Shown here: piece after piece, positions 21,022 through 39,124 of the stretch
Numbering within the stretch: position 1 is the first letter of the stretch
How the letters are laid out: each line of letters starts with the position of its first letter
Translations under genes and position numbers: made by a program
Origin: Paraburkholderia azotifigens
Lineage (GTDB): Bacteria > Pseudomonadota > Gammaproteobacteria > Burkholderiales > Burkholderiaceae
Reading direction: 5' to 3'
NCBI RefSeq assembly: GCF_007995085.1
Contig: NZ_VOQS01000003.1
Location: forward strand, 248,001-312,000
DNA: 64,000 nucleotides
The notes under the pieces: model-generated
The model's database searches: none
What the model was told of the DNA's origin: nothing
The model's input: only the letters and a program-made list of their open reading frames with translations

Positions 21022-21184
21022 GACGCACTCCTACTATCGAACAAACCGGTTCGCCAACAGGCGGTTGGCGTCGCCCTCGATAGTCGGGACGACGCGGCAC
21101 ATCGTAAGTTCTAGTCTTGATTGGTGACGCCGGTCGTGGCGTGCGACGACATCGGTCCGCGGACATCTGCCGGACAACCGGCGT

Positions 21185-21598: not shown

Positions 21599-21640
21599 GA
21601 CTTGCTCCACTCAGCTGCGGGCTGACTCACATTCGGTATG

Positions 21641-22475: not shown

Positions 22476-22545
22476 TTGTAGGACGCCTGCCCTGATCCAT
22501 CGACACGTCAACTCCCCCAGACGCCAGCGGGCAGGCGTCCTACAA
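22476..22545. repeat. 17-bp stem palindrome downstream of IS91 transposase
   Basis: TTGTAGGACGCCTGCCC at 22476-22492 pairs perfectly with 22529-22545 around a 36-nt loop. It lies about 280 nt after the stop of the IS91-type transposase, where the replication origin end (oriIS) of such elements is expected. Equally it could be a dispersed palindromic repeat. Confidence 0.55.
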
Positions 22546-22822
22546 GCCCCAAGGGAGGAAACCGCGGAGTGCTCCGGCATGGTCTGAACGTTTCACCGCT
22601 ATGGCGATTTGTTCGATCCCATTGAAGGCATGGTGGATATAAACGCGGGTAAATCTGCGGTTAGACACGCATGATCGCGGCGACGGCACAGCGGTGGGTT
22701 GTCATCGCGCCGACTCGGCCAGCGCCAGACTGCCTGTTTGGAACGATAGGCACAGGCGTCTGCTATTGGCTCTCGTTGCCGAAGAGCCGACAGTCGAATT
22801 GTGCATCCTGACACGATGGCGT

Positions 22823-24010
22823 TCATGCGTGGGCGCACTCGACAGGCGGTGCCCGGATAGGTCTGCTGCGTTGGAGTATGTCGATGATGATCATTGGCGA
22901 ACCGCAGTGCCGGCAAACGAAGCTTGGCGGTACTTCCACGGTGGATACGACGTTGGCACTGAGGCCGACACTGTTAGGCGCGGCGCCCAGCAACTCGCGT
23001 ATCGTCGCGAGATTCTCGCGCCGCGATGGGTTCGCGAGCAGACCGTAGTGGCGGATGCGGTGGAAGCCGCCAGGCAGCACGTGCAGCAGGAACCGGCGCA
23101 CGAACTCATCTGCCTGGAGCGTCATGGTCTTGTTGCGTGTGCGTCCGTCTACGCGGTAGTCCTTCCAGCGGAAGGTGACGCCATGTTCGTCGAGCGCGAC
23201 CAGGCGTTGGTTGGAGATCGCCACCCGGTGGGTATAGCGTGACAGATAGGCGAGCACTGCTTTGGGCCCTGCAAACGGGCGTTTGGCGTATACCACCCAC
23301 TCACATGTACGCATTGGCGCAAGCCACCCGGCAAAGGCTGCCATATCGTTGAGCTCGGCGTATTCGCCGAAGAAGCGCAACTGGCCGCGGCGATAGATCG
23401 CTTCCAGCTCCTCGAGGAAGCGTCGCCGGAACAGGCGCGAGAGCACGCGCACCGGAAGGAAGAAGCCTGGCTTGCACGCTACCCACCTGCTTCGGTCCGG
23501 CGACAGCCCACCACCGGGAACGATGCCATGCACATGGGGATGATGCGTGAGCGCGGAGCCCCAGGTATGCAGCACGAGAGTGGCACCGATCTGTGCCCCG
23601 AGATGCTTCGGATCGGCGGCGATGCTGCGCAATGTTTCGGCCGCGATATCGAACAGCAGCCCATAGATGACGGCCTTGTTGTAGTACGCAATCGCGCTGA
23701 TCGCAGCCGGCAGCGTAAAGACCACGTGGTAGTACTCGACGGGAAGAAGATCGGCCTCACGCGCTTGGAGCCACCGGCGCGCAGCGGTAGCCTGACACCT
23801 CGGACAATGTCTGTTGCGGCATGAGTTGTAGGCGATCTCGATCCTGGCGCATCCCTGGCAACGCAGCACGTGCCCTCCCAGCGCCGCGCTGCGGCACTGT
23901 TCGATCGCTGACATCACCTTCAGTTGCCCAAGGTTCAGGTGAGCGGATTGGCGCCACGCTGGACCAAGAGCGCGGAAGACATCGGCTACCTCGAGCGCGC
24001 AATGCGCCAC
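22823..24010 (-). CDS. IS91-family (HUH, Y2-type) transposase
   Basis: The 395-residue protein has the N-terminal zinc region (HVLRCQGCARIEIAYNSCRN, then RHCPRCQ), the HUH motif (HHPHVHGIVPGGGLS) and the Tyr region YLSRYTHRVAISNQRL, all typical of IS91 rolling-circle transposases. The C-terminus ends in another Cys pair (FVCRHCGSPM). It begins 9 nt after the stop of the recombinase 3' half, so the two form the usual recombinase-transposase pair. It appears intact. Confidence 0.93.
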   Translation of the reverse strand: MAHCALEVADVFRALGPAWRQSAHLNLGQLKVMSAIEQCRSAALGGHVLRCQGCARIEIAYNSCRNRHCPRCQATAARRWLQAREADLLPVEYYHVVFTLPAAISAIAYYNKAVIYGLLFDIAAETLRSIAADPKHLGAQIGATLVLHTWGSALTHHPHVHGIVPGGGLSPDRSRWVACKPGFFLPVRVLSRLFRRRFLEELEAIYRRGQLRFFGEYAELNDMAAFAGWLAPMRTCEWVVYAKRPFAGPKAVLAYLSRYTHRVAISNQRLVALDEHGVTFRWKDYRVDGRTRNKTMTLQADEFVRRFLLHVLPGGFHRIRHYGLLANPSRRENLATIRELLGAAPNSVGLSANVVSTVEVPPSFVCRHCGSPMIIIDILQRSRPIRAPPVECAHA

Positions 24011-24544
24011 GACGGCTATCTACGCAGGATCCAGACCATCGAGAGGGCTGACCACTTCACGCAGAATATCGGTGGCGACCTGGGCATAAAGCGCTGTGGT
24101 CTCGAGCTTCTTGTGCCCAAGCATGACCTGAATCACGCGGATATCGACCTTCTGTTCCAGTAGGTGGGTGGCAAAGCTATGGCGCAAGGTGTGCATGGAC
24201 ACACGCTTGTCGATTCCAGCGGCCTCGGCGGCCGCATGGACCACCCGATTGAGTTGACGGGTGCTGAGCGATTCAATCGGATTGAGCCCGGGAAACAGCC
24301 AGCCGCCGTCGAGCATCTTGCCCTGGGCCCGGGCCACTCGCCACCAGACCCGCAGGCGCTCAAGCAGCACCGGGGACAGCATCGCGTAGCGGTCCTTCTG
24401 ACCTTTACCCTGTTCAACGCGCAGCGTCATGCGCTGGCTGTCTGCGTAATTCGTGGAAGCTGGACACGCGTTTCGCGTGAAGGTGGACGGCTGATTCGCG
24501 CGAAGCTGGACAGTCGGAGCGCAGCGACGCGGGGTTTCCGATTT

Positions 24545-25303
24545 TTACTCTGATCGGGGTTTGTCGGTCAAACTCTTTTTGTGTTTGCGCATCGACTCGC
24601 CGCTGAGATTGACGCGATAGGTGTTGTGCACGAGTCGATCGAGAATGGCGTCGGCGAGCGTCGGATCCCCGAGTACCGCGTGCCAGTTCTCAATTGGAAT
24701 CTGACTTGTCACAAGCGTCGAACGGTGGCCGTGACGATCATCAAGAATCTCCAGCAGGTCGCGCACGGCGCCGTCGCTCATGGGCGCCATCGCGAAGTCA
24801 TCCATCAGCAGGACGTCCGTCTTTGCCCACTGCGCCAGCAGGCGTGCGTAGCGGCCACTACCGTGGGCAATGGCAAGATCCTCGTTCAACCGGGGCATTT
24901 TCAGATACAGCGTTGAGAAGCCCTGACGGCATGCCTGGTTGGCCAGTGCACAAGACAGCCAGGTCTTGCCAAGACCGGTGGCGCCTATGATCACCGTGCT
25001 GTTGCGCTCGCGAATCCAGTTGCACGTCAGCAGCTGGCCGATGAGACTGCGGTCGAGTCCCCGTGCCGAGCGGTAGTCGATGTCCTCGGGCACGGCATCG
25101 GGGAACTTCAGTTTTGCGCGGCGTAGCCGCGCCGTCGTCTGCCGTGATTCGCGCACGCTGGACTCTCGCTCAACAAGCAGACCCAGTCGTTCCTCGAAGC
25201 TCATTGCTTCGATGTCGGCGAGTCCCTGCTGCTCGGTGAGCGCGGCGGCCATGCCGCTCAGGCGTAGCTCGTGCAGCTTCTCGATGGTCGGATGTCTGAG
25301 CAT
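24545..25303 (-). CDS. istB: IS21-family helper ATPase IstB
   Basis: The 252-residue AAA+ protein of the IstB/DnaC type has Walker A (VIIGATGLGKTWLSCALANQ) and Walker B (DVLLMDDFAMAPMSD). The N-terminal domain (EKLHELRLSGMAAALTEQQG) is typical. It remodels target DNA and recruits IstA. It starts 9 nt after the istA stop; the length is normal and it appears intact. Confidence 0.95.
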   Translation of the reverse strand: MLRHPTIEKLHELRLSGMAAALTEQQGLADIEAMSFEERLGLLVERESSVRESRQTTARLRRAKLKFPDAVPEDIDYRSARGLDRSLIGQLLTCNWIRERNSTVIIGATGLGKTWLSCALANQACRQGFSTLYLKMPRLNEDLAIAHGSGRYARLLAQWAKTDVLLMDDFAMAPMSDGAVRDLLEILDDRHGHRSTLVTSQIPIENWHAVLGDPTLADAILDRLVHNTYRVNLSGESMRKHKKSLTDKPRSE

Positions 25304-25312
25304 ATTTCTCCT

Positions 25313-26851
25313 TCAATGGTAGTAGTTGGGCCCACGCACGTTGGCGTGCGTAAGCGGTAAGTCGGCCTGTGCAGATGTCGGCGAGGGTTGCTGATCCAGA
25401 CCGTTCTTCAGCGTTGAGGCGATGAACTTGTACCCCGGCGCTTTGAGATCGATGGCGCGGCAGCAGGCCACCTCAAGTCGCTCGTTGCCATAGTCCTTTG
25501 CGAGCCGAAGCACACCAAGACAGGTGCGATAGGCCTGCTGCGGATGCTGGCGACCGCCCAGCAGATGCTCGATGACTGCGGCGGTGTATGGGCCGATGCT
25601 GTCCGCCCAGTTGCGCAGGCGCTGTGGGTCCCAGCCAGTGACGGCCTGATGGTTAGCGGGCATGTGTTCATTGAGCGTGGTATGGGCGCCGCGCCGGTCG
25701 CTCTTTGCGTGCGCGGCGATACGCTTGCCGCGATGGAAGATCTCGACCGTCGATGTGGTGTAACGAAGGTCAACCTGTTCGCGCGCAAAGCGATGTGGGA
25801 CCGAGTAGTAATGACCAGTCAGTTCGACGTGATAGTCGATGCCGACGCGGGCGACCTTCCAGTCGGCGTACTGGTACGGCAGCACAGGCAACGCCTTGAG
25901 CGCCGGACGGTCAAGTTCCTCGAAGGCGCTGCGGCGCGAACCCGGCAGCTTCTTGAAGGCCTTGTTGTTCAGGCTGGCGAGCAATCCGGCGATTGCCCGG
26001 TTCGCCTCGGCCAGACTGAAGAAGCGCTGCTTGCGCAGCCGGGCGAGAATCCAGCGCTGGACCAGGAGTACGCCCTGTTCAACCTTTGCCTTGTCGCGGG
26101 GCTTCCCGCTGCGAGCCGGGAGGACAGTGACGCAATAATGCGCGGCCATTGCTGCGTAGGTGCGATTGATCAGCGGATCATAGAAGCTGGGCTTGTGTAC
26201 GCCTGACTTAAGGTTATCCGGCACGACAATCTCAGGACAGCCACCGATGAATTCGAACGCACGCACGTGCGAGCCGATCCAGTCCGGCAACTGCTGCGTC
26301 CAGGTCGCTTCGGCGTACGTGTAGTTCGACGCGCCGAGCACTGCGACGAAGAGCTCCGCCTCACGGATCTCGCCCGTCGCCGCATCGATGATTGCGACCC
26401 TGTCGCCGGAGTAGTCGACGAACAGCTTCTCGCCCGGAGCGTGCGTCTGGCGCAATGTCAGGGGCAACGAGCTGGCCCACTGGCTGTAGTGCGTGCAGAA
26501 CCACGTGTACGCATAGCCGTCCGGATGCTCGGCCTTGTACTCGTTCCACAGCAGATCCAGCGTGACGCCCTTGCGCGAGAGCTCGCGACGGACGGTGGGC
26601 CAGTGGGGTTCGGGCCGCTGCCCCTCGACCTGTGGTGGCGGCGGGTACAGCAGCGCTTCGAGTTCATCGTCGGACAGCGTCGCCGACACCGCCCAGGTAA
26701 GCCCTGCGCGCTCCATGCGCCGCACATACTGTCCGACTGTCGTTGGAGAGGCACCGACTGCCCGGGCAATCTCACGCTGCTTAAACCCGCAGTCGAAATG
26801 CAGGCGCAGCACTTCACGAATTTTACGCATGGTCAACGTTGGATATGCCAT
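25313..26851 (-). CDS. istA: IS21-family transposase IstA
   Basis: The 512-residue DDE transposase has an N-terminal helix-turn-helix (DCGFKQREIARAVGASPTTV) and an rve core: KLFVDYSGDRVAI, EIVVPDNLKSGV and the Glu segment PRDKAKVEQGVLLVQRW. The inner ATG, with GAGAGG before it, is preferred to one 11 codons upstream. It forms an operon with istB and is apparently intact. Confidence 0.93.
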   Translation of the reverse strand: MAYPTLTMRKIREVLRLHFDCGFKQREIARAVGASPTTVGQYVRRMERAGLTWAVSATLSDDELEALLYPPPPQVEGQRPEPHWPTVRRELSRKGVTLDLLWNEYKAEHPDGYAYTWFCTHYSQWASSLPLTLRQTHAPGEKLFVDYSGDRVAIIDAATGEIREAELFVAVLGASNYTYAEATWTQQLPDWIGSHVRAFEFIGGCPEIVVPDNLKSGVHKPSFYDPLINRTYAAMAAHYCVTVLPARSGKPRDKAKVEQGVLLVQRWILARLRKQRFFSLAEANRAIAGLLASLNNKAFKKLPGSRRSAFEELDRPALKALPVLPYQYADWKVARVGIDYHVELTGHYYSVPHRFAREQVDLRYTTSTVEIFHRGKRIAAHAKSDRRGAHTTLNEHMPANHQAVTGWDPQRLRNWADSIGPYTAAVIEHLLGGRQHPQQAYRTCLGVLRLAKDYGNERLEVACCRAIDLKAPGYKFIASTLKNGLDQQPSPTSAQADLPLTHANVRGPNYYH

Positions 26852-26904
26852 GTGGCCTCTCGACGAAATCGTCGAGCGTGCCACGGTTGACCCGCGTCGC
26901 TACA

Positions 26905-27033
26905 TCAGAGCGTTACTGTCCAGCTTCGTGTGAAATCGCTGTCCAGCTTGCCGTGAAATCCGTGTCCACCTTCGCGTGAAATGCCTGTCCAGCTTGCCGC
27001 GAAATCACTGTCCAGCTTGGTGTGAAATACGCA
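26905..27033. repeat. multiple IstA-type end repeats
   Basis: On plus, five copies of a motif near CTGTCCAGCTTSSYGTGAAA follow one another at 22-24-bp intervals up to the element end. Three inverted relatives are present at 24443-24515. Arrays like these are the transposase-binding sites of IS21 elements; the third right-end copy has CACCTTCGC instead of CAGCTTGCC. Confidence 0.75.
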
Positions 27034-27040
27034 GGCTGTC

Positions 27041-29143
27041 GATGTCTCCGACCTTCAGGGCCACCACCTCGCTGGCACGTAGTCCTGTGCCATAGGCTAC
27101 TGCGAGCGCTGTCTGATGCTTGAGGTTACTGGCCGCCGCGATCAGCCGCCCCACTTCGTCGCGGCTGAGTATGACGGGCAAGGTACGCGGAAGATAAATC
27201 GGACGCATCTTCGCCATCAACTCCCCTTGACCGAGCGTGGTGGCAAAGAAGAACTTCAATCCGGTGATCGCCGCGTTGAGGGAAATCGGCGACACACCGC
27301 GGTCAACCAGATGTAGCTGATAGCGCCGCAAGTCCTCGACGGTGGCGGTGTCAGGCGAGCGACCGAGAAAGACGGTGAACTCTCGAACCACACGAAGATA
27401 GTTGGCTTGTGTGGCTGGCGCGAGGCGGCGCATGCGCATGTCGTCCATCATGCGCTGGCGTAGCGGACTGATGCCTTGGCTGGGGGTAGTCATGGCTGGG
27501 CTCCTGTTGAGCAACGAGGCGGAGTGCCTCATTGCTCAACATAGGAAACCGGGCGGGTTTCCTATGAAGAACCACCGCGTTCAAACGGAGTGCATACCGC
27601 GCGAGCGGTTTAGGCAGTATGACTTTCCGTGAGCCAGTGGCTGGCCCGCCGTGAGGAACCAAACGCGGGTTAGCATCACTGCCAGAGCCGCACGATGTGC
27701 ACAGGGCACACCCCGGCGATTTCCAGCGCGGAGGCCAGCGTGAACCACGATAGCACGGTGTTTGTCGGTCTGGATGTTCACAAGGAGTCGATCACGGTGG
27801 CGTACGCAATCGATATGGCCGACGTGGAACTGTTGGGCAAGATCGGAACGCTGAAGGCGGATATCGATCGCTTGTGCAAGCGTGTTCAGTCGAAGGCGCG
27901 CCATGTCCGCGTTGTCTATGAAGCCGGCCCCTGCGGCTACGGACTCTACAGGGAGCTCGTTGAAAGAGGATTCGACTGCGTGGTATGCGCGCCGTCCCTG
28001 ATCCCGAAGAAACCGGGCGAGCGCGTCAAGACGGACCGGCGCGATGCGGTCAAGCTCGTACGCGCACTGCGCGCTGGCGACCTGTCAGCGGTACACGTGC
28101 CGGATGTTGAAGATGAGGCGTTCCGGGACCTGGCGCGCACATGGGCGGCAGCGAAAGCAGATCTCAGACAGGCCCGCCAGCGATTGAAGTCCTTCCTGCT
28201 ATCGCATGGAGTCCGCTACTCAGGTAACGCCAACTGGGGTCCCGCGCACCGGCGATGGATAAGCGTATTTGCATTCCCAAACCACTGGCAGCAACTGGCC
28301 TTCGACGAGTGCCGTCGCACGATCGAAGACAGGTTTGCGCAATGTGAGCGCCTCGAGGCGACCCTGCACGAAGCTGTCGTCGGCTGGCGATTTTATCCGG
28401 CCATTCTCGGTCTGCAGACCATGCGCGGCATACAGTTCATCACCGCCGTGGGCATGCTCTCCGAATTGGGAGATCTCTCCCGCTTCGAGCACCCGCGTCA
28501 ACTGATGGCCTGGCTGGGCGTGACGCCCTCAGAACATTCTTCGGGTGAGCGGCGGCGTCAGGGCAGCATCACGAAGAACGGCAATAGCTATGCAAGAAAG
28601 CTGCTCGTCGAGGCCGCCTGGAGCTACAGATACCCGGCACGCGTGAGCCCGGAAATTCAGCGCCGACATGAAGGCATCCCCAAACGCATCCTCGACCGTG
28701 CCTGGGACGCACAGGTCCGACTCTGCCGCCGATACCGCAAGCTGGCAGCACGCGGCAAGAATGTGAACATCGCTGTCGTCGCCGTCGCACGCGAACTTGC
28801 GGGGTTCATCTGGGACATCAGCAAGCTCGCAATGTCGCTCGCCGTAACGCGAAACGAGCAGCCGGCGTAGCGCTGAGCTTGGCTACACAGATTTGACGAG
28901 TTTCCTGAAGGCGGCGTAGCCCGGCACCCGAGCAACCCGCGGCTGGACTATGCAACGGACATCATTCGATTTGCGACTTTAGATAGCGGCAGGCTCAAGG
29001 GGCGGACCTCTGTAATGCGGTACCCAACCCGCGAATATCAGTGCGATCCACCGTCGAGACTTACTGCTACGTCGCCCTCAGGAAATTCATGTGTCTTCCA
29101 AACGAAAACCGATCCCGATTGACACGGAAAGTCATATCAGTCC
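27041..29143. repeat. 2103-bp direct repeat, copy B
   Basis: It matches 8061-10163 base for base in the lines compared. Its left edge lies immediately after the IS21 target duplication. Here the recombinase 5' half continues, across IS21, into its 3' half, so copy B is in the ancestral context and copy A is probably derived. The hairpin pair of copy A recurs at 27507-27566. Confidence 0.95.
27740..28870 (+). CDS. IS110-family transposase (copy B)
   Basis: The translation is identical to the copy at 8760-9890, with the same DEDD motifs (VGLDVHKES, KTDRRDAVKL) and serine region. The GTG with GGAG upstream is again the preferred start. Noncoding flanks of about 150 bp before and 220 bp after belong to the duplicated block, one of which probably encodes the guide RNA of the element. 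Confidence 0.9.
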   Translation: MNHDSTVFVGLDVHKESITVAYAIDMADVELLGKIGTLKADIDRLCKRVQSKARHVRVVYEAGPCGYGLYRELVERGFDCVVCAPSLIPKKPGERVKTDRRDAVKLVRALRAGDLSAVHVPDVEDEAFRDLARTWAAAKADLRQARQRLKSFLLSHGVRYSGNANWGPAHRRWISVFAFPNHWQQLAFDECRRTIEDRFAQCERLEATLHEAVVGWRFYPAILGLQTMRGIQFITAVGMLSELGDLSRFEHPRQLMAWLGVTPSEHSSGERRRQGSITKNGNSYARKLLVEAAWSYRYPARVSPEIQRRHEGIPKRILDRAWDAQVRLCRRYRKLAARGKNVNIAVVAVARELAGFIWDISKLAMSLAVTRNEQPA

Positions 29144-29405
29144 CTTGGCCGAAAACGGAAGAAGAGCGCGCTTACCACCAGTTCGAATACATCAGCCATC
29201 GCGAAGCACGTTCTCCCGCAGTCAGGTCTTGTGGGATCTCACGGACGCCATGAACGGTGGCTATCGATATAGCCCTGCCGGCGCCGGGACCCCTGATTTT
29301 GCCAGATGCAATCGCAATGCGGCCACGCCCGCAACGGATCATCAGATTCCACTGCAAAGTCCCAGATCCGGGAAAAGCCGCAACAGAATCGTGCTATTAG
29401 GATAA
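29091..29405 (+). CDS. hypothetical protein spanning the repeat edge
   Basis: A GTG-initiated frame of 104 residues reads MSSKRKPIPIDTESHISPLA and later RSQVLWDLTDAMNGGYRYSP. Its first 53 nt lie in the duplicated segment; in copy A (10111-10163) the frame is cut by the repeat edge. No good ribosome-binding site is seen and no family is recognised, so it may be a remnant or chance frame. Confidence 0.3.
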   Translation: MSSKRKPIPIDTESHISPLAENGRRARLPPVRIHQPSRSTFSRSQVLWDLTDAMNGGYRYSPAGAGTPDFARCNRNAATPATDHQIPLQSPRSGKSRNRIVLLG

Positions 29406-29513
29406 GTTTTCTTATCGGACCGGATCGGTTGTACAGATTCAAGACCTTTCCGATAGGAATCCTACCAAGAAACAATTTTAACGATTACGCTTACCGGTGG
29501 TTATCGGCTCGGC

Positions 29514-29912
29514 TCAATCCCCTTCTGGAATCGGCGAACTGGCGGTCCCGCAAAGATACCGCGCGAGTTGCCGCTCGGCGTCGACGACTTTGTGCAGCGG
29601 CGCAACGTTGAGTTGCGAGTCGTGTAGCGCCAACAGCTTTTCAAAAGCCGGTAGCGCCTCGTTTGCGAGCAGCCATTCTCCGGATTCATACGCAAGCGTG
29701 AGCGCGGCTTCGACCGCATATTCGGCAAACTTGTACAGTGCCACTGGCTCGTCGCCGTATCCAGCCTGCTGGAGAAACCACGCGACGTACACGGTTCGTA
29801 TCAGTTCATTGAACAGATAGTTGTTCCCGTAACCAATCCGGCATGTCGCGAGCGCGAGATGATAGGACAGCGACTGTTCCCGCGCGGCCGTCACGTCCAT
29901 GGGTAACAGCAT
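29514..29912 (-). CDS. 132-residue helical protein of unknown function
   Basis: The protein reads MLLPMDVTAAREQSLSYHLA, then NNYLFNELIRTVYVAWFLQQ and LPAFEKLLALHDSQLNVAPL, an all-helical cytoplasmic type seen in Burkholderiales replicons (from memory). The ATG at 29912 fits this family better than the one 20 codons upstream. No partner gene is evident. Confidence 0.6.
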   Translation of the reverse strand: MLLPMDVTAAREQSLSYHLALATCRIGYGNNYLFNELIRTVYVAWFLQQAGYGDEPVALYKFAEYAVEAALTLAYESGEWLLANEALPAFEKLLALHDSQLNVAPLHKVVDAERQLARYLCGTASSPIPEGD

Positions 29913-30314
29913 CGTTTTCGAGAGGGGGCCTCTCGGCCAGCTCACGCTGCCCGGACCTCGCTTTGAACTCATGTGATGTAGTCAATGGCCACGTCTGATC
30001 GGTGGCCTGATTGTAGCCAAGGTCTGTAGCACGGAGCAGTAGCAGACCTGCGGCCGGTTCGGCACACGGCACATTCCCAGCTCACAGCGATGCCTCACCG
30101 CCGGCTGGCATGCGCCACCTATAGCTAATACTTTCGGGCGCTGCGAGCCGCACTCCCTGTACGGATTGTCGCCCATCAGCTGCGTGCAGCGTCACGATGT
30201 CAATGAAACGGCCTCGAGCTTCCGCGGGACAGAGATCCAACCATCTCACAACCATGGGAAACGGCTGTAAGCGTGGCAACGCTACCACAAATCAATGACC
30301 AAACGCGCCGGCGG
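29913..30314. other. no gene recognised
   Basis: Spacer between the HU gene and the helical-protein gene, both minus. No stable terminator was recognised. Confidence 0.35.
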
Positions 30315-30593
30315 TTACTGGCCGTTCACTGCGTCCTTGAACGCCTTGCCAGCGGTGAACTTCACCGTCTTTGCCGCAGCGATTTGGATTTCTTCGCCGG
30401 TGGCCGGATTGCGACCAACGCGTGCGGCGCGGGCCCCGATCGAAAACGAGCCGAAGCCGATCAGTTGCACCGTGCCACCCTTCGTCACTTCGGCGGTAAT
30501 CGTCGCCACGAACGCCTCGATCGCTTCACCCGTTGCAGCCTTGCTTTCGCCTGTCTTCGCCGCAATCGCGTCGATCAGTTCCTGCTTCGTCAT
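30315..30593 (-). CDS. HU-family DNA-binding protein
   Basis: The 92-residue protein has the N-terminal helices ([20 protein letters not shown]), the [20 protein letters not shown] beta-arm with the intercalating Pro region, and the closing [14 protein letters not shown] helix. It binds and bends DNA as a dimer. AAGGACT stands before the ATG. Whether it is the housekeeping copy or an island copy cannot be told; its place next to mobile DNA suggests an accessory copy. Confidence 0.93.
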
Positions 30594-31031
30594 CGTTTAG
30601 TCCTTTCTTAAGGTGGTTAGTCGTCACCACCCTACCCGATAAGGACGTCTTCGCGCAACTCGCGGAGCAGTCGCGCTCGATCGCACCCCAGGCTGAGCTG
30701 AACGGCCAGCCCGTCCCCCGCCGATGGCACGACCGCACAACGAGAGCCGTAACGCGACCGACCGCGAGGCTACACTCAAGCCGCGACGAATGCTTATCAC
30801 TGAAATCCGCCTCGGATTGCTGCCGACAGACCGCAAACGACCCAGATGGAATGGACACCTAGACGGCGCCAGCTTCGACGCAACGGCGTCACACCCATCG
30901 GCGCAGTTAACTGTTTCTACAATCGATCTGACAGCAACGAATTATTAGACAGTTCGGATGCTTCGGCCGTGCCCCGCTCAACCGTCTCAAGGGTTGTGTT
31001 GATGCTCGTCGGTGTTTTCACCGTGAAAAGT
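30594..31031. other. no gene recognised
   Basis: About 440 bp with only poor overlapping frames. It contains the promoter of the HU gene and lies downstream of the AbiEi-type gene, where an AbiEii toxin gene would be expected but is absent. Confidence 0.4.
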
Positions 31032-31694
31032 CTAGCATCGCAGCGTACTCGCCCATCGATGCCCTTCGCTTTCAGCCAGTGTCTTCAGTGTCCTGATAAC
31101 ATCGCGCCGCAAGCAGTGATCGGCAAGAGTTTGAAGCACCGCAGGCCGGATTGCCCGTAGTTCGCTCACAAGATTTCCAGCGTGTTCCAGACCTTCGCCA
31201 CCCACGTCTGCGAGGAACTCGATGATCGCACGCTCGCGATGCGAGACCATGACATCAGGATGCTTTAACGGAAGCGCAGACACCGCATAGCGTGCATCAA
31301 GTGCGCTGTCGAAAAGCGGACGATGATCATACCGGGGAGACAACACCGACTTGGTCCACTCCGGAAATATGAAACTCTTGGAACCACGGAGCTGCAAGCG
31401 CTCGCGAACATACACGTAGTGGCGCACACCCCAACGATCAAGTGCACTGCGTCCAGCGATGTGAAGATGCGGCACATGCCTCGAAAGGTAGGCTACCGTC
31501 CCTTCGATCGACGGTTTATCTCCTCTCAAAAGGTAGGCATTATCGGAGAGTTGATTGAGCCAGCCGCTGCCAATCAGCACCGGAACTTTCGCCGGGGGAA
31601 TCCCGATACTCGCGAGGTACGGACGATCGAACGGCTGCCCCCGAGTGACCAGGTCCATGAGGGTCTGTACGTCACACGCGAGGTCCAAGGGCAT
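31032..31694 (-). CDS. AbiEi-type antitoxin/regulator
   Basis: The 220-residue protein has a winged-helix N-terminus (TRGQPFDRPYLASIGIPPAK, GWLNQLSDNAYLLRG) and the AbiEi_3-like domain (HIAGRSALDRWGVRHYVYV), then a helical end. AbiEi proteins repress their operon and counter the AbiEii nucleotidyltransferase toxin (type IV toxin-antitoxin). GCGGAG 9 nt before the ATG fixes the start, 16 nt after the stop of the upstream gene. No AbiEii gene follows, so the partner may be the upstream gene or be missing. Confidence 0.75.
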   Translation of the reverse strand: MPLDLACDVQTLMDLVTRGQPFDRPYLASIGIPPAKVPVLIGSGWLNQLSDNAYLLRGDKPSIEGTVAYLSRHVPHLHIAGRSALDRWGVRHYVYVRERLQLRGSKSFIFPEWTKSVLSPRYDHRPLFDSALDARYAVSALPLKHPDVMVSHRERAIIEFLADVGGEGLEHAGNLVSELRAIRPAVLQTLADHCLRRDVIRTLKTLAESEGHRWASTLRC

Positions 31695-31710
31695 GGTGCC
31701 GTACTCCGCT

Positions 31711-32142
31711 TCAGGGCGCTTCGACCAAAGACCGGATAGCCAGTTCGGCCGACTGCCAGACGACGGTGTGATTTGTCGCTTGGTCAGGATCAGGCTGAAG
31801 GAGCTCGCATGCCGTGGCACGCCCCCCTTTGTCCCTGTAGGCAAAATACGTCATTGAAGTTTCGCCTTCCGCATAAGACCAAAACTCATCGACGGCAACC
31901 AGTCGATCCCACTCAAGCGCATACACCTGGATAGAATGACCGTCCGCACCGTCCAGGACGGCCTTCAGAACCTGAGGGCCAAAAATCAGATATGAGTAGC
32001 CGTCTCCGTCGTCACGAAGTGCTTGGGAAGAGCGCACCATGAATACCGTCGAATTGTGCGTCACTCCTGTCATTTCCCAGCGAGTGAATGCATCACCGGC
32101 GATTTTCATCGAAGATTGCCAGGAAGGTTTGGTGAAGAACAT
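31711..32142 (-). CDS. 143-residue protein of unknown function, paired with AbiEi
   Basis: The protein contains SYLIFGPQVLKAVLDGADGH and VYALEWDRLVAVDEFWSYAE, alternating strands and helices of a soluble globular protein. No family is recognised, and no nucleotidyltransferase motif (GSxxxD) is seen. Its stop is 16 nt before the AbiEi-type start, so they form one operon. Starts at 32142 or 32109 are both possible, neither with a clear ribosome-binding site. Confidence 0.5.
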   Translation of the reverse strand: MFFTKPSWQSSMKIAGDAFTRWEMTGVTHNSTVFMVRSSQALRDDGDGYSYLIFGPQVLKAVLDGADGHSIQVYALEWDRLVAVDEFWSYAEGETSMTYFAYRDKGGRATACELLQPDPDQATNHTVVWQSAELAIRSLVEAP

Positions 32143-32802
32143 ATTCGAGCAGCAACAACGTCCAAACGGGATTTGAGAGACGGAAGATCAAACCCTTTTG
32201 GGTCGTAAATGCCGTGTTGTTAAATGTACCATAGTTGTAGCCCATGATAAACCGCTATCAGATGAGAGTTGCTGCACTGACATCCGGTAATCGACTCGAC
32301 GCCCGCGAGTTTCCTCTCTATCTGGCTGCCTCTGCACATCCTGTTCATTGCAATCATGCGAAAAAATTGGGTGTCGCGCGGGGTTCGTGGTGGTCCAGGG
32401 TGTAGGCTTAACCACGCGTTAGTCCCGTGCGCGAGTTGCGAAGGGCTGGTATCGAATATGCGTGACCAGAGGCGCAGACTATACCCACTCCTTTCAGGTT
32501 TTCTTCACCCGGTGATAAACAGATACAACATCATTCAATACATTGCTTGTATTAAAAGTTAAACAAATAGTATTTCTTGTCAAAATACAAATCGAATAGT
32601 AGATTTACACCAAAAATCCTCTGCTCACATCATCAGCCGCAAGAATTTCGACTTGTCGCAAGATCTAAAGCATCGCAATGATGCATCTATAGCGCATCTA
32701 CAAGATGATGACTTGACAACGGCCTGTTTGGCGGGATCGCGTGTGATTACAGAGAACCATTGTGCTGCCGGATATCTTTTTAGACCACTGCTAAGGACTC
32801 GC
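32143..32802. promoter_or_regulatory. AT-rich region upstream of the Tn7-like operon
   Basis: This 660-bp stretch has no gene on either strand. It should hold the tnsA-proximal transposon end. Two related segments starting TTGCTTGTATTAAAAG (32543) and TTTCTTGTCAAAATAC (32573) lie 30 bp apart and could be TnsB sites. A clear terminal TGT or a 5-bp target duplication could not be fixed. Confidence 0.4.
32577..32605 (+). promoter_or_regulatory. candidate sigma-70 promoter of tnsA
   Basis: TTGTCA (five of six to the -35 consensus) is separated by 17 bp from TAGATT (four of six to -10). It points at tnsA, leaving a leader of about 190 nt. It overlaps one of the candidate TnsB repeats, so transposase binding could repress the operon (inference). 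Confidence 0.4.
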
Positions 32803-33501
32803 ATGTACGCACCGGGGTACGTCTCATCGAACCGAATTATGTCCATCACTTACCCGAAGGATGGCGACATTCGCATAAAAACAATCATTAGTCGGTCCAA
32901 CGCCAGACCAACGGGCAAATATCCATCGTGGAAGATGGAAAGGATGATGCACTGGTCTACACGGCACGAACTGAATGCGTATCGACTGCTGGATGTACAT
33001 CCAGCCGTGCTCAGTTTTAGTGAACATCCGTTACGTATCGCCGTGAGGTGGAACGGGACAATCATCGAACACTGGCCGCAGGTGTTAGTCGATCTCGGTT
33101 CGTGGCGCGAGCTTTGGTACATATGCACCGCCGAGCAGGCAGATGTGCCCGATGCGCTCGCGCTTACGGATTTGTTGCAAACTCAATTGCCGAAGTATGG
33201 CTATTCGTATCGCGTCGTAACCGGTGAAATGCTCGCACGGCAACCTCGCCTTTCAGTTGCGTTGTCTTTGCTCAGGTACGGAAGACGACCAATTGCATTA
33301 GCCGAACGTGAACACATGCGTTGCCTCCTCGCAAAAACAGGCTTCATTCTGTGGGGCGCAACTGATTCAGGGATACTGGGACGCCGAGGCCGCGCAGCCA
33401 TCTCCCGGCTAGCACTTGAAGGCATTCTTCAGTTCGATTATGACGCCCCGCTAGGACCACACACCGCTTTTATGCTGAAAGACAATTTATCCCGACGGTG
33501 A
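32803..33501 (+). CDS. tnsA: TnsA-like protein with degenerate nuclease site
   Basis: The 232-residue protein has the TnsA entry motif (GKYPSWKMERMMHW), the helix with Glu56 (STRHELNAYRLLDVHPAVLS) and a strand EHP, then EHWPQVLVDLGSWRELWYIC. In active TnsA proteins this last part reads like YxPDF...LxEVK: the catalytic Asp is here Gln93 and the Lys position is Cys108, with Tyr106 in place of Glu. The C-terminal half resembles the DNA-binding, TnsC-contacting part. AAGGA before the ATG at 32803 fixes the start; an upstream TTG also reads in frame. The tnsB start follows 4 nt after the stop. First-strand cleavage is predicted to be lost. Confidence 0.75.
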   Translation: MYAPGYVSSNRIMSITYPKDGDIRIKTIISRSNARPTGKYPSWKMERMMHWSTRHELNAYRLLDVHPAVLSFSEHPLRIAVRWNGTIIEHWPQVLVDLGSWRELWYICTAEQADVPDALALTDLLQTQLPKYGYSYRVVTGEMLARQPRLSVALSLLRYGRRPIALAEREHMRCLLAKTGFILWGATDSGILGRRGRAAISRLALEGILQFDYDAPLGPHTAFMLKDNLSRR

Positions 33502-33505
33502 TCTT

Positions 33506-35524
33506 ATGGCCACTCGTACCTTCCATGCAGGCGCACAAGTACGAATCGACGGGAGCGCCGCGACTTTACTAAGAAAGTTATCCGACGGGAAGTGGCAAGT
33601 CGAGGACGACCGCTCAAAGCGAATTACGGAATATTCCCTGAACCAACTGTATTCTCTGTACCTTCAGAACCGACTTGTATTCTCCGGGCGTCTACCCGCG
33701 CCTTTCTCCCGACCACATCTGCCGGAGGCACATGCCAAAGACGCTGATTGGGAACTCGCCAAGATCCGGCGACTTTATGTCATTGCCATCATCGAAATTC
33801 CTACTTGGAGTCCGGCGGTAATAATCGCCATAAAGAATGTGTGGTCTCGCATACAACAGCCGCGCAATATTCCCGGGGAAACCACCGTGTACCGGTGGAA
33901 GCGGAGATTCCTCAACGCAGGACGGGATATCCGATCGCTGCTTCCCGCTGACGCGCTCAAGGGTAACAAAACGAATCGATATCCAGACGAGGTGATGGCT
34001 TTCGTAAGTGGTGCAATCGAGCATACGTTCTTGACATTAGAAAGAAATACCGTTCAAGACACACTCGATGACGCGAAATACCGCGTGATTCAAGAGAATA
34101 AATTGCGACCACGATCGGATCAGCTTCCGCTGCCCACATACTGGGTGGTAAAGGCGGCGATCGACGCAATCCCTGCGTTTGATCGTTATGCTGCCCGTCA
34201 CGGCCGCACTGCCGCAGAAAAGAAATTTCGAGCTGTCTTGGGTCACCGCACGACACAAGCGCCGCTAGAGCGCGCAGAAATTGATCACACACCTCTTGAT
34301 CTATTCGTCATCGACGATGACACACTCATGCCACTCGGACGCCCATACGCGACAGCGTGCATCGACGATTACACAAGGTGTGTTTTGGGCTTCTATATCA
34401 GCTTCGAACCACCAAGCCACTTTACCGCAGCACGTTGCCTAAAACAAGCCTTTATGCCCAAAACGGAATTTCTTCAGACCTATCCGGGAATTCGTAGCCA
34501 ATGGCTGGCACACGGTGTTCCGATAGAACTGATCGTCGACAACGCACGAGAGTTTCATAGCGCAAGCTTCGAGAACGCTTGCCTCTCGCAAGGCACATCA
34601 ATTGAGTATGCTCCTCGCAAGAAGGCGTGGTTTAAAGGGAAAATCGAGCGATTTCTACGAAGTGCTAATGCAGAAATTGCACATGGAAATCCTGGAACCA
34701 CGTTCAGTAATATTTTTGACAAAGAAGACTACGACCCCGCAAAATTTGCCGTCGTCAGATTCAGCACCCTCAAAGAAATCGCGTATACATGGATAGCCGA
34801 CGTATATCACCAGAGAACCCACCGTACTTTGGGAGTACCACCGGAGTTGATGTGGGCAAATAGTATTCATCCGGAGGATATCCCAGTCCCGGAAGATCCA
34901 CTCAGTCTCGACTTTATCCTCGGGCAATGCGAGGAACGAACCCTCACTCACAAGGGCATAGAACTTCATGAGCTGTACTACAACTCACCTGATCTCACCA
35001 TCCTTCGTGAAAATCTAGGTGACCAGCTAAGGGTCGAGATTCGCGTCGACAATTCAGACCTTGGTCATATCGTCGTACTCGCGCCTGACAAAAGCGAAAC
35101 GTACAAAGTGCCTTGCCTGAAAGCCGACTATGCAACGGGGTTGTCTCTCTGGCAGCATCGAGTCTGCAAGCGCTTTGCGAATCGGTCTTTAGAAACTTAC
35201 AACGCGGAGGCGTGGCTCGAGGCTAAAGCACGCATCAGGCAGTTAGTCGAGAACGAGTTCATGTACAAAGCTCGACGTACCCGCGCGAAGTTAGCACGAT
35301 TTAAAAACTTCGATGCAGTGACACCAACAGAAGACAAACAATTGCCGGAAGATCACGCTCCGCCTTTGACATCAAATGACGTCTCGGATGCAATCGGTGA
35401 ACTGCCGGCATCTGGGATGAACGTTTCCCCACCCACCGTCGAGCGCCCGCGCCGAATAGTTCCCCAGTATCGCGAGCGCCATCCGGCCGATCCTGAACTG
35501 CCCGGAGAAAATAATGAAAACTAG
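33506..35524 (+). CDS. tnsB: TnsB-like DDE transposase
   Basis: The 672-residue protein of the Mu/TnsB retroviral-integrase group has helical DNA-binding domains in the first 240 residues (TTVYRWKRRFLNAG). A catalytic core follows with Asp260 (RAEIDHTPLDLFVID), Asp345 (LIVDNAREFHS) and Glu381 (KKAWFKGKIERFLR). A Mu-C-type beta-barrel (about 470-560) and a disordered C-terminus follow, the latter the usual contact for TnsC. The length is near Tn7 TnsB (702). All catalytic residues are present. Its 3' end overlaps tnsC by 11 nt. Confidence 0.93.
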   Translation: MATRTFHAGAQVRIDGSAATLLRKLSDGKWQVEDDRSKRITEYSLNQLYSLYLQNRLVFSGRLPAPFSRPHLPEAHAKDADWELAKIRRLYVIAIIEIPTWSPAVIIAIKNVWSRIQQPRNIPGETTVYRWKRRFLNAGRDIRSLLPADALKGNKTNRYPDEVMAFVSGAIEHTFLTLERNTVQDTLDDAKYRVIQENKLRPRSDQLPLPTYWVVKAAIDAIPAFDRYAARHGRTAAEKKFRAVLGHRTTQAPLERAEIDHTPLDLFVIDDDTLMPLGRPYATACIDDYTRCVLGFYISFEPPSHFTAARCLKQAFMPKTEFLQTYPGIRSQWLAHGVPIELIVDNAREFHSASFENACLSQGTSIEYAPRKKAWFKGKIERFLRSANAEIAHGNPGTTFSNIFDKEDYDPAKFAVVRFSTLKEIAYTWIADVYHQRTHRTLGVPPELMWANSIHPEDIPVPEDPLSLDFILGQCEERTLTHKGIELHELYYNSPDLTILRENLGDQLRVEIRVDNSDLGHIVVLAPDKSETYKVPCLKADYATGLSLWQHRVCKRFANRSLETYNAEAWLEAKARIRQLVENEFMYKARRTRAKLARFKNFDAVTPTEDKQLPEDHAPPLTSNDVSDAIGELPASGMNVSPPTVERPRRIVPQYRERHPADPELPGENNEN

Positions 35525-36536
35525 GACAGTCCCCGCAACTCTCGTTGATGACACGTTGGTACCCCACCAGGCGTATCTTGCAGCAACGTCCCGGCTGGAC
35601 CAGTGCTTTACTTACGCACACGGCGCAAGGGAGCCTGTCTGCTTCGCTCTCGTCGGCGAGTCGAGGACAGGCAAGAGTCGGACACTGGAGGAGTTTTTTG
35701 ACAGACATCCAATTACGCGCAACGACGACGGACTTTCCATTCCCATCCTTCGTGTAGCCACACCTTCAAAACCAACCGTAAAAAGTTTGGTAGAGGTAAT
35801 GCTGAAAGATGGCATGCACGACGAGTTAGCAACTAGCGGTTCAGAGAATCAGAAAACGAATAGACTGATCAAGTTGATGAAGGAATGCGACACGCAGATG
35901 GTGATGATCGACGAATTTCATCATTTCGTCGATAAGGGCTCCCATAAGGTAATCCATCATGTCGCGGATTGGCTAAAGGTTTTGGTTGATAAGCTTCGAT
36001 GTGTTCTTGTCGTTGCTGGTCTCCCCATCTGTCAGTCCGTACTAGCACAAAATGAACAACTCCAGGGAAGGTTTTACGCACCCGTAATCATGCCGCGTTT
36101 TAATTGGGAGATTGACGATCAACGCGTGGAGTTCGTTGCAATTTTGGGGTCTTTCCAAGAATCGCTGAGCAGATATTTCGACCTCCCTCCACTGGATGGT
36201 GACGAGATGGCATTCCGTTCCTACTGCGGCTCAGGCGGACTCATGGGCTACCTGACGAAGTTCTTGCGGAAGGTCGTTTGGAATGCAATAGATCAACAAA
36301 AGAGAAGAGTTACACTTCTCGACCTCGCCACCGCCCATGAAGAGGCAGTATGGGCGAAATTCTCTCCCGGACGTATTCCGAACCCGTTTTCGAAAGAGTT
36401 CCATCCCCGTCCGAGTGAAGAATTGCTCTCCCTAATCCGTAAGATCGGCACGTCCGTAGAATCACCACTTGTGCACCGCGAGCATAAAGGGCGCTCGAAA
36501 GGCCCGTCTGTACGCGATGTGCTGAGCGCCAGGTAA
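35514..36536 (+). CDS. tnsC: TnsC/TniB-like AAA+ regulator
   Basis: The 340-residue AAA+ ATPase has Walker A GESRTGKS (48-55) and Walker B VMIDEFHHF (130-138), with the conserved HHFVDKGS sensor loop of TniB/TnsC proteins. It should polymerise on DNA, link TniQ to TnsB and convey target immunity. GGAGAAAATA precedes the ATG. The stop and the next start share bases (TAATG), so tniQ is translationally coupled. It is shorter than Tn7 TnsC (555) and like Tn5053 TniB in size. Confidence 0.93.
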   Translation: MKTRTVPATLVDDTLVPHQAYLAATSRLDQCFTYAHGAREPVCFALVGESRTGKSRTLEEFFDRHPITRNDDGLSIPILRVATPSKPTVKSLVEVMLKDGMHDELATSGSENQKTNRLIKLMKECDTQMVMIDEFHHFVDKGSHKVIHHVADWLKVLVDKLRCVLVVAGLPICQSVLAQNEQLQGRFYAPVIMPRFNWEIDDQRVEFVAILGSFQESLSRYFDLPPLDGDEMAFRSYCGSGGLMGYLTKFLRKVVWNAIDQQKRRVTLLDLATAHEEAVWAKFSPGRIPNPFSKEFHPRPSEELLSLIRKIGTSVESPLVHREHKGRSKGPSVRDVLSAR

Positions 36537-38812
36537 TGCTCGTACGTACTCCCCCGCACGCACTCACAGAAAGCTTGCTTGGTTATGTGCTGCGCGTGTC
36601 AGAAACCAATGGATATGAAACGCCGTGGCACATCCTCAGGTATGCTGGGCTGCTACAGGCAGAGATGAGCACACCCAGCTTCCCTGTGGCGAAACTTGCA
36701 TCGATCTTGGGTCGACCTCCGGAAGCCTTGCACGATATATCGTACGTGGCGTCCGTTGGCGCCGAAAGAGGTTTCGTCATACTAGGCCATCACCTAGGCG
36801 GCAGTTTCACTTTCAGGCCTCTGAGGTTGCGACGCCCAGCACTATGTCCAGAATGTGTGTCTGACCGCGGATTCATTGAGGCATTTTTCGATTTGAGCCT
36901 CGTTGTCGCCTGCCCTGTCCATGGCAGGGAACTGCTTTTTCGGTGCGAAGTTTGCGAACAGCAACTGTCGCATTTTCGTCCCGGTCTGCTTGTCTGCAAA
37001 TGTGGGGCAACGCTATTGGGGCAATGTCGTCGCGATGTCAGCGACCGCGTCATCGCCTTGATGGCCGTGCTGAAAGCAAATCTCGAACGCACCCATGTTC
37101 CATCCGGCACACCGGTTCAGGGCCTCCCGGTACAAAACTTACTGGGGATGCCACTTCGCTCCCTGCTCGTGCATCTCCCAAAATTCTCGCAGTTCAACCG
37201 GCCCGCCGCTGATTCCATTTCACTCGAAGCTGTCGATGGAGTCGCTGAGGCCCTCGAAGATTGGCCCCATGGTTTCCATCGCTTTTTGCGTCGGCATGGT
37301 CAGAGCAGGGACGCACCGACTTTCCATAAACGCTTTGAGAAATTTTCAGAGTCGTTCTTCGGGGTACCGCAAACGCGTCGTGAATATGGCTGGTTGCACA
37401 CCCAGTTCCTCGAATTCGGCATGATGCACGCGAACGGCTCCATCGTGGACCCGAGGACTATACCCGGCCGCGTCCACAAGCGTCGCTTCGTCTCACTCCG
37501 CGATCTTTCAAAACGCATCGGTCATGACGTACGTTCACTTGAAGCTTGGTCTCGAAAAGGATTAGTCGATGTCACCAGTATGAGGAACGGTGCGAGCCGT
37601 CGGTTCATCGTTGACCTCGAAGCGATTAGCCTTCCACCTCGCCCGGAAAAGACGGATATTTTGGGGAAGCGAGAGGCAGCCGCATGGCTAGGCATGCCGC
37701 TAAGTGTCCTCACCAGATTAAGAAATCACGGTCACTTTAAGGTTTTCCATCATCTCGAGTTTCGTACCGGTTACCACCAGGCCGATCTGGAAGCGTTCCG
37801 CAAACAACTTCTCGCTCCTAGCCCGAAAATCGAACATGCGGCATTGCCGGAATTGGTGGTTAGTCTCAAACAAATGTTGTCGACTTCGCGCCTCCACAGC
37901 GTTGAGCATAAGACGCAACTAGTGATTGCGTATTTAGATGGCCGATTTTTGTCCGTCGGGAGGACGGGTGAGACCATTGCCGACATTTATTTTGAGAAGC
38001 GGCGTGTCGCGGCGCTCGCAGCTGCAAGTCGTGCGGTCATTGCCCGCGGAACTCTCACGCACGCACAGGCGGCGCAGGCAATCGGATGCAATGTATCGCT
38101 GATCCCCGGACTGCTAGCGCGCAACTTTCTCAAGAAAACAGAAGTGACAAAGCGCTTCGGCATTGATGCGACCAGCGTGGAGTCGTTCGCCCATCGCTAC
38201 GTGCAGCTTTCAAATTGTGCATCTGATTGGGATACAAGCTCCCTGCGTCTCAAGCGAATTTGCAGGCATGCGCACGTTCGCGTTTTTCACGTCCCTCATC
38301 GAGCCAACGGCGAAGTACCTTTCATAAGCCGCCGTGATATTCAATCTCTGCATGACGCCCTGAATCTTGAGAACAGTTACCAATCCTCGAAGGCACCTCG
38401 AGAGATCGGACCCGACCCCATCGTCCTGCTTCGTCGGTACCTTGCGAATTTGTCGTATAGCAATGAACCGCTCCCTTGGCGAGATGGACAACCAAACAAA
38501 ATGGCGATAGCCAAGGCCTGTGGATTCGATCGCGATGTTTTTTACAGTAATGCCAAAGCGATCAAGATTCTTCTCACTTTCGCCCGCGGCGAACGGAAGC
38601 GACGTACTGCCGCGGGAAATTCCGCAGATTCATCAATAGCCCGACTACGCAGCTACCTCGACCAGTTAAAAAGGGATGGGAAGGATCTCCCATCTCATGG
38701 CGGGCACCTCAACAAGAGGAAAATCGCTGAAAGCGCGGGCGTCAACCGCAACCTGTTTTATAACAGCGTCGAGGCACTGCAGATGTTAGAAATTTTCAGA
38801 CGCCGAGCTTGA
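36536..38812 (+). CDS. tniQ: TniQ/TnsD-like target-selection protein
   Basis: The 758-residue protein opens with a TniQ domain (TESLLGYVLRVSETNGYETP) and two zinc modules: CPEC (104-107) with CPVH (126-129), and CEVC (137-140) with CKC (154-156). The middle shows helix-turn-helix-like segments (DILGKREAAAWLGMPLSVLT). Two tandem copies of a domain close the chain at about 628-685 and 700-757 (PNKMAIAKACGFDRDVFY and LNKRKIAESAGVNRNLFY). The great length and DNA-binding tail fit a TnsD-type protein that recognises a fixed attachment site. That site is not identified. Confidence 0.9.
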   Translation: MLVRTPPHALTESLLGYVLRVSETNGYETPWHILRYAGLLQAEMSTPSFPVAKLASILGRPPEALHDISYVASVGAERGFVILGHHLGGSFTFRPLRLRRPALCPECVSDRGFIEAFFDLSLVVACPVHGRELLFRCEVCEQQLSHFRPGLLVCKCGATLLGQCRRDVSDRVIALMAVLKANLERTHVPSGTPVQGLPVQNLLGMPLRSLLVHLPKFSQFNRPAADSISLEAVDGVAEALEDWPHGFHRFLRRHGQSRDAPTFHKRFEKFSESFFGVPQTRREYGWLHTQFLEFGMMHANGSIVDPRTIPGRVHKRRFVSLRDLSKRIGHDVRSLEAWSRKGLVDVTSMRNGASRRFIVDLEAISLPPRPEKTDILGKREAAAWLGMPLSVLTRLRNHGHFKVFHHLEFRTGYHQADLEAFRKQLLAPSPKIEHAALPELVVSLKQMLSTSRLHSVEHKTQLVIAYLDGRFLSVGRTGETIADIYFEKRRVAALAAASRAVIARGTLTHAQAAQAIGCNVSLIPGLLARNFLKKTEVTKRFGIDATSVESFAHRYVQLSNCASDWDTSSLRLKRICRHAHVRVFHVPHRANGEVPFISRRDIQSLHDALNLENSYQSSKAPREIGPDPIVLLRRYLANLSYSNEPLPWRDGQPNKMAIAKACGFDRDVFYSNAKAIKILLTFARGERKRRTAAGNSADSSIARLRSYLDQLKRDGKDLPSHGGHLNKRKIAESAGVNRNLFYNSVEALQMLEIFRRRA

Positions 38813-38935
38813 GTGTTGATCTCGGAAAATGCCGCTTCCCGGCAAGTCGATATTTGCACGCGATGCAAGGTTAAGCGAGACACTGTCAATGCTTGTCGCC
38901 GAGATGTAGACTGGACGGGGCTTCTAGCGGTATTC

Positions 38936-39124
38936 GGCGAATATCTCACCTTATGCTTCAATCGTGGGCGAAAATATCACCTTTTGACGACTTTCCATTC
39001 CACATTATGGTGTATCTGCGTAGCTTAAGCTATTGATTTAAATGGATTTAACAGTTCACTTTATGCTGCAACCCACAATGCGCCCATTAGCAAATCATGC
39101 AGAGCGAACTAAACTGACTTATCA
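38936..39124. repeat. candidate TnsB-binding repeats of the tniQ-side end
   Basis: GGCGAATATCTCACCTT at 38936 and GGCGAAAATATCACCTT at 38967 are 15/17 identical and 31 bp apart, about three helical turns. Weaker relatives are CAGTTCACTTTATGCTGCAA near 39052 (compare CTCACCTTATGCTTCAA) and GCGAACTAAACTGACTTATC at 39104. Ordered repeats that stop where core-like DNA begins fit a Tn7-type end. The exact terminus is not proven. Confidence 0.55.

Follow-up and report, generated by a model that had tools for sequence, protein, structure and literature searches.

A Tn7-like transposon of Paraburkholderia inserted beside nrdJ carries a conserved TnsA that has lost its nuclease residues

Tn7 encodes TnsABC together with TnsD, which takes part in the choice of its target, attTn7 at glmS. 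What may follow when the TnsA nuclease fails is suggested by two published accounts: the D90A TnsA mutant of the Vibrio cholerae CRISPR transposon (CRISPR-Tn) gives cointegrates, according to the accessible part of its report (PMC8188705), and the available text of a second source states that replicative transposition is unimpeded by mutations of the TnsA catalytic site (PMC8649781). By the same logic, elements with a dead TnsA should move replicatively. Here we describe an element in which such a TnsA appears to have arisen naturally. It lies partly within a stretch of 64,000 nucleotides of Paraburkholderia azotifigens DNA (assembly GCF_007995085.1, contig NZ_VOQS01000003.1, positions 248,001 to 312,000 of the forward strand), hereafter the window, from a genome of 9.7 Mb in five contigs. 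We consider it likely that this is a Tn7-like homing transposon in which TnsA persists as a nuclease-dead but still needed structural subunit, and that it probably moves by replication. With somewhat less assurance, we favor the broader proposal that the pseudonuclease is a conserved scaffold for TnsB and TnsC, that homing to nrdJ is coupled to copying, and that such elements are, if this is true, a natural intermediate between cut-and-paste Tn7 and replicative elements that have no TnsA.

The tnsA-tnsB-tnsC-tniQ operon (Table 1) is intact, as a preliminary description made from the sequence alone had reported, and the TnsB triad D260/D345/E381 and both TnsC Walker motifs given there are confirmed. 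The triad is kept in all five operons of the clade described below, in agreement with Pfam matches, while TnsC, a TniB-type AAA+ ATPase of 340 aa, adjoins TnsB, and TniQ falls in the TniQ/TnsD family (PF06527, E 1.1e-9, 39.6 bits against a cut-off of 27). The same description had noticed a full-length TnsA-like protein without nuclease residues; the alignment bears this out and extends the loss to all four active-site positions of the PD-(D/E)XK type, which read S52, Q93, Y106 and C108. The protein retains the TnsA fold but not the active E, D, E/Q, K set of the cut-and-paste Tn7 type. In a fold search with it, the rows ranking under the TnsAs were PD-(D/E)XK, winged-helix domains and others. 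An alignment artefact is rejected as the cause of the loss, since the columns flanking the replaced residues are invariant (P92 and W105) or nearly so (W51) and TnsAs of solved structure align identically. Another lysine in the active site had been raised as a counter-case, and residues 44 to 131 contain none, so that no nearby shifted catalytic lysine fills the site; E103, the closest acid on the same strand, is almost invariant in intact TnsAs as well. Judged from its sequence, the window TnsA is probably catalytically inactive.

The loss is not peculiar to one copy. A search with the window TnsA gave a single match in its own genome and, at E <= 0.001, matches in 6 of 144 Paraburkholderia genomes: the window's own, three with close relatives (P. 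gardini LMG 32171, or G136; Paraburkholderia sp. BCC1885, or G346; and G276), one with a distant TnsA that keeps its site (G075), and one whose match is not a TnsA (G319). Of 399 genomes sampled from the order, 22 matched, and G438, the best match from another genus, has WES/PD/EIK. When 84,980 species genomes were scanned by pattern, 25 loci were returned: three in Paraburkholderia (P. gardini, BCC1885 and P. ginsengiterrae DCY85) and 22 in other genera; 17 of the 22 read EDEK at the four positions, three are too short to be read and two are altered (EDKK and EHTK), one of these lying at a contig edge and the other being 140 aa long. The five Paraburkholderia TnsAs read SQYC (window), GERC, GERC, AGRC and RDSR, so that the replaced positions vary among them (S/A/G/G/R, Q/G/E/E/D, Y/R/R/R/S and C/C/C/C/R). 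Of the two residues that the preliminary description had singled out, C108 therefore recurs in four of the five elements, whereas the Q93 position is not conserved. Overall, EDEK is retained in 125 of 148 aligned TnsA rows. Of the remaining 23, seven stand for the dead elements, two of the five being represented twice; a further 12 differ at one or two positions (P0005, P0033, P0041, P0057, P0072, P0074, P0078, P0080, P0082, P0113, L076 and L079), and four do not cover all four columns (the short L077, L080 and L081, and L083, whose correct frame reads WES/PD/EIK); among rows covering all four columns, three or more changes occur in the dead clade only.

In a tree of 79 hand-chosen rows, a branch with support 100/99 separates the window TnsA and its four close relatives in Paraburkholderia from all other rows, and it recurs (100/98) in a 40-row tree, also hand-chosen, from which the four catalytic columns had been removed. 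A TnsB tree likewise sets the five elements on one side of a branch (Shimodaira-Hasegawa-like approximate likelihood ratio test, SH-aLRT, 99). The preliminary description had allowed for homologues with an intact site, which would make this a lone decayed copy; the site loss proves instead to be a trait of a five-member clade, and a lone decayed copy is rejected on that ground. The lineage of BCC1885 splits first in the TnsA tree and still has the D and the neighboring Q75, which suggests that the site eroded stepwise. Elsewhere in the data, three metagenome or environmental TnsAs, P0033 and P0041 (EADR) and P0080 (EDDQ), group together (98/85) and may represent a second site loss.

The dead TnsAs are under purifying selection, being constrained, though less so than the products of the neighboring tns genes. 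Comparison of tnsA from P. ginsengiterrae and P. gardini gives 28.5 synonymous changes over 168 sites and 28.5 nonsynonymous changes over 516, a ratio of nonsynonymous to synonymous rates (dN/dS) of 0.30 (p 1.6e-5); the ratios for tnsB, tnsC and tniQ in the same pair are 0.12, 0.19 and 0.24. Nor do the dead TnsAs diverge faster, relative to TnsB, than intact ones: across pairs that are not independent of one another, TnsA minus TnsB identity has a mean of -0.039 for the dead pairs (n = 10) and -0.054 for intact pairs with TnsB identity > 0.45 (n = 80). All reading frames are open in the five elements for tnsA, tnsB and tnsC, and in four of the five for tniQ. Retained selection and unaccelerated divergence point to a non-catalytic job for TnsA, which would most simply be a role in assembly with TnsB and TnsC.

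The whole element spans C3:196593-287077 of the window's contig (90,485 bp), beginning TGTGGG and ending CCCACA at window position 39077. Its ends carry repeats of the type ACAGCATAAGTTGATAT, which resemble TnsB sites, inside TGT...ACA termini; a scan finds three at the left end, where inspection by eye adds a partial fourth, and four at the right, and one extra match within the element (C3:236647) is taken as chance. A complete sister element of 31,869 bp occurs in G276. Each is bounded by a perfect 5-bp target duplication, ATGCG in the window genome and GTTCC in G276. Six of seven insertion-free genomes realign with the window from 39103-39106 and in G306, the seventh, agreement resumes only at 39614. 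For G298, the insertion-free genome whose left flank was compared, that flank aligns 90 kb upstream on the window's contig.

Directly to the left of the window and G276 elements lies nrdJ, the gene for an adenosylcobalamin-dependent ribonucleotide reductase (the G276 copy matches TIGR02504 above cut-off, and the others were identified by 83-86% identity). The distance from the nrdJ stop codon to the TGTG of the left end is exactly 27 bases in all four hosts in which it was read (window genome, G276, BCC1885 and P. gardini), while the 27 bases themselves differ between the hosts. The operon is on the same contig as this end in the window genome and G276, and on another contig in BCC1885 and P. 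gardini, where the like repeats and the single tnsA suggest that end and operon belong together. The nrdJ genes of G298 and G327 have no such element end beside them, and for P. ginsengiterrae the 10-kb flank of the element showed no left end. Among 16 intact-TnsA loci searched, four show an nrdJ end in the flank retrieved: L063 has 27 bases between the stop and the start of the element, L066 and L067 have 26 or 28 (TGTGTG), and L062 has 29 or 31, with a further end-like sequence at 2. Insertion at a fixed distance from the nrdJ 3′ end, 26-28 bp past the stop, is thus seen in dead elements (C3:196563-196592; L111, L112, L113 and L116) and intact ones (L063, L066 and L067), so that the homing site is common to both. 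An earlier candidate, scattered insertion near a hydroxyacid dehydrogenase gene in P. gardini, P. ginsengiterrae and G276, was replaced by this fixed site once the host nrdJ genes had been seen. The perfect but different duplications mark the window and G276 insertions as separate events, and the tree places the loss of the site before their common ancestor, indicating that the dead lineage has moved since.

We propose the following course of transposition. TniQ, which by analogy with TnsD of Tn7 may be a TnsD-type reader of the target, would recognize the 3′ end of nrdJ, and TnsC would relay this signal to TnsB bound at the end repeats. TnsB would then cut and join the 3′ ends only, giving the 5-bp duplication 27 bp past the nrdJ stop codon. 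The 5′ ends, left uncut by TnsA, would yield a branched intermediate that is most likely replicated into a cointegrate, to be resolved by host recombination, by a recombinase acting in trans or, for the window copy, possibly by a TnpS/TnpT-like pair. The structural role of TnsA, the replication and the resolution are all steps that we infer.

The preliminary description had found no resolvase. This does not hold for the whole element, in which tyrosine recombinase matches occur at four places (Table 1), and does hold for the complete G276 sister, which has no PF00239 or PF00589 match anywhere inside it, so that resolution there would need the host or help in trans. A serine resolvase was not found on contig C3, which holds none of the seven PF00239 places of the genome. 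One of the four places is a recombinase gene left of the window that diverges, across 166 bp, from a gene for a KfrA_N protein; between them lies one inverted repeat of 11 nt (91% complementary). A tyrosine recombinase divergent from a partner gene is the layout given for TnpS/TnpT of Tn3-family transposons in the accessible part of a published account (PMC7157771). Among five related divergent pairs, one of whose records is without a gene table, a single pair (in Cupriavidus taiwanensis) adjoins an annotated Tn3 transposase. A Tn3 transposase is about 1000 aa long, and the open reading frames (ORFs) of at least 500 aa in the window's element include none near that size. From these two observations, the pair may be what is left of a nested Tn3-type transposon, possibly still able to act. 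Related recombinase/KfrA_N pairs recur on plasmid records of Paraburkholderia, Caballeronia, Cupriavidus and Rhodanobacter. BCC1885 has nine tyrosine recombinase places 5-17 kb upstream of tnsA on the same contig (C234:10451-22100).

Several observations weigh against the reading proposed above. The genomes showed no cointegrate, no second copy and no donor/recipient pair, one such tnsA being present in each of G000, G136, G276 and G346, and the two complete elements are each a simple insertion flanked by a target duplication, a product that cut-and-paste would give as well. The G276 element is without a recombinase of either searched family. Within the tns operon, tnsA has the highest dN/dS in the species pair compared (0.30 versus 0.12-0.24), and the TnsA/TnsB comparison draws on non-independent pairs. 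In P. gardini, the right end (L058 9853) is followed by TGAAT and the left end is preceded by GCTGA (L116), giving no matching duplication; the cause may be a rearrangement, a neighboring deletion or the presence of two different elements. In BCC1885, tniQ stays open for 413 aa and ends 94 bases short of the contig edge. The earlier suggestion of a dead, structural TnsA in an element that moves by copy-out has accordingly fared differently in its two halves: the first is strengthened by a protein that is full length and selected, that has lost its nuclease residues across a clade and that is carried in a lineage that has moved since, while for the second no cointegrate or second copy was found.

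The simple insertions, perfect duplications and single copies would also fit an outcome like that of cut-and-paste, in which TnsB does the joining at the 3′ ends, the old flanks are removed by a host nuclease, and the simple insertion arises without the element being copied. Infecting phage Mu offers a precedent for such trimming, and the complete G276 element has no recombinase of the two families searched for. A resolved cointegrate equally ends as a simple insertion, however, and the D90A TnsA of CRISPR-Tn gave the hallmarks of cointegrates, as far as the available text of that work goes (PMC8188705); we regard host trimming as unlikely. It is more doubtful still that the host has another Tn7-like element providing an active TnsA in trans. 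Two other TnsA-like frames do exist in the window genome, in which PF08722 was sought (C5:2521255-2521533 and C1:2475825-2476097, the latter below the Pfam cut-off), and a distant TnsA with an intact site occurs elsewhere in the genus (G075), but neither frame was matched in the search with the window TnsA and both thus belong to other subfamilies, and selection on the dead TnsA would be unexpected if a foreign one had taken its place.

That TnsA still cuts by means of shifted or unusual residues, for example a cysteine at the lysine position, might be argued from the presence of this Cys in four of the five elements (SQYC, AGRC, GERC and GERC), which implies that the replacement is not wholly random. 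The variation of all four positions among the five proteins, the lack of any Lys across residues 44-131, and an E103 that is nearly invariant in intact TnsAs too make this a very improbable explanation. The least credible is that the window holds a lone, decaying and immobile copy. Its distance from intact-site TnsAs, of which the closest among the best 120 of 158 proteins (P0003) is at most about 54% identical, would be in keeping with such a fate, but the clade has five dead elements with their operons open as described, purifying selection acts on them, and both complete elements have exact target duplications. A nuclease-dead, structurally retained TnsA in an element that probably replicates therefore remains our preferred reading.

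Table 1. Positions of the features of the element, in window coordinates unless another record is named
Feature	Position	Strand	Remarks
tnsA	32803..33501	+	232-aa TnsA; S52/Q93/Y106/C108 at catalytic E/D/E/K positions
tnsB	33506..35524	+	DDE transposase; D260/D345/E381 present
tnsC	35514..36536	+	TniB/AAA ATPase; Walker A GESRTGKS, Walker B MVMIDE
tniQ	36536..38812	+	long TniQ, 758 aa
Element, right 39 kb	1..39077	.	remaining 51 kb, including left end (C3:196593), left of window
Right end	38943..39077	.	four TnsB-site-like repeats, minus: 38943-38959, 38974-38990, 38997-39013, 39053-39069; terminal ...CCCACA
Right target duplication ATGCG	39078..39082	.	left copy C3:196588-196592, outside window
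Cargo, AbiEi-type regulator	31032..31844	-	relatives about 40% identical upstream of tnsA in P. gardini and P. ginsengiterrae
Cargo, 143-aa protein, no function assigned	31711..32142	-	a gene near the left end of the G276 sister matches at 40% identity across 132 residues
Tyrosine recombinase frame, 318 aa	7596-8552		catalytic domain matched only in part (3-52 of 172)
Integrase piece	27005-27532		starts like the 7596-8552 frame; one side of IS21-type transposase
Integrase piece	24020-24430		other side of IS21-type transposase; the two pieces lie next to an IS91-type transposase
Tyrosine recombinase, 387 aa	L046:12189-13352		divergent from KfrA_N protein, 166 bp apart; pair L046:12189-14463, outside window

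In three of the five dead elements, those of P. ginsengiterrae, P. gardini and BCC1885, tnsA is directly preceded by an IS3-like ORF with an rve domain, of about 180-200 aa (L057:9269-9877, L008:15604-16212 and L016:5153-5701). It was considered as a substitute cutter and rejected: its dN/dS is 0.58 (p 0.04), it was not found in the window's element or in that of G276, and it is thus not required. The cargo left of the window includes Lamassu-type defense genes (LmuA- and LmuC-like, L046:10088-11856) and an open frame of 2872 aa (C3:225725-234343), and that of the G276 element a RADAR pair, RdrA and RdrB (L051:5801-8377 and 8381-11107), with a 1630-aa protein whose AAA_16 match is below cut-off (9 of 15 ORFs of at least 100 aa were covered by the Pfam scan). 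Window positions 22823-28870 hold an IS91-type transposase, two integrase-gene pieces around an IS21-type transposase and an IS110-type transposase, of which a second copy lies at 8715-9890. Outside the element, the Burkholderia small RNA ncS54 (RF02871) has an Rfam match at 50706-50785.

A clade of dead TnsAs under selection separates two jobs of this protein, cutting and holding the transpososome together, and the intact-TnsA relatives at the same nrdJ site are a matched control for a direct test. The presence of tnsA is by itself no predictor of cut-and-paste movement, and the clade provides material for work on a non-cutting TnsA of natural origin and on nrdJ as an attachment site. In the literature covered, from which supplements and most subscription papers fell outside, we found neither a naturally nuclease-dead but conserved TnsA nor an nrdJ attachment site of a Tn7-like element; two papers containing both "nrdJ" and "Tn7" (PMC5962746 and PMC8388888) are, by their titles, on other subjects.

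Compared with known systems, the element differs from Tn7 in its lost TnsA site, its nrdJ target and its TniB-type TnsC of 340 aa. The TnpS/TnpT-rst module of the Tn3 family, as far as its accessible description extends (PMC7157771), is alike in the divergent recombinase and partner, a likeness of gene layout; here the pair may be a nested remnant, and the G276 element lacks it. Tn6022 is also a Tn7-like element with TnsABC and TniQ and, in the available portion of its report (PMC10293859), 39.1% of its insertions in the assay used were co-integrates in the presence of its own TnsA; unlike the present element, it uses TnsF and targets comM, and that portion makes no mention of a lost TnsA site. 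The closest parallel in mechanism, the D90A mutant of CRISPR-Tn, shares a TnsA that is present but dead beside an intact TnsB, but is described in the text at hand (PMC8188705) as a laboratory mutant of one residue, whereas the loss described here is natural, involves four residues, spans a clade and is accompanied by selection. Tn5053-type elements and type V-K CRISPR-associated transposons (CASTs) resemble it in having no working 5′ cutter and in the cointegrate predicted from this (PMC8649781 and PMC11406308, in the parts accessible). The element is nevertheless not of the Tn5053/Tn402 type, in that no serine resolvase of its own was found on contig C3 or in the G276 element, and it stands apart from both groups in keeping a conserved, selected tnsA and in taking the 3′ end of nrdJ as its target.

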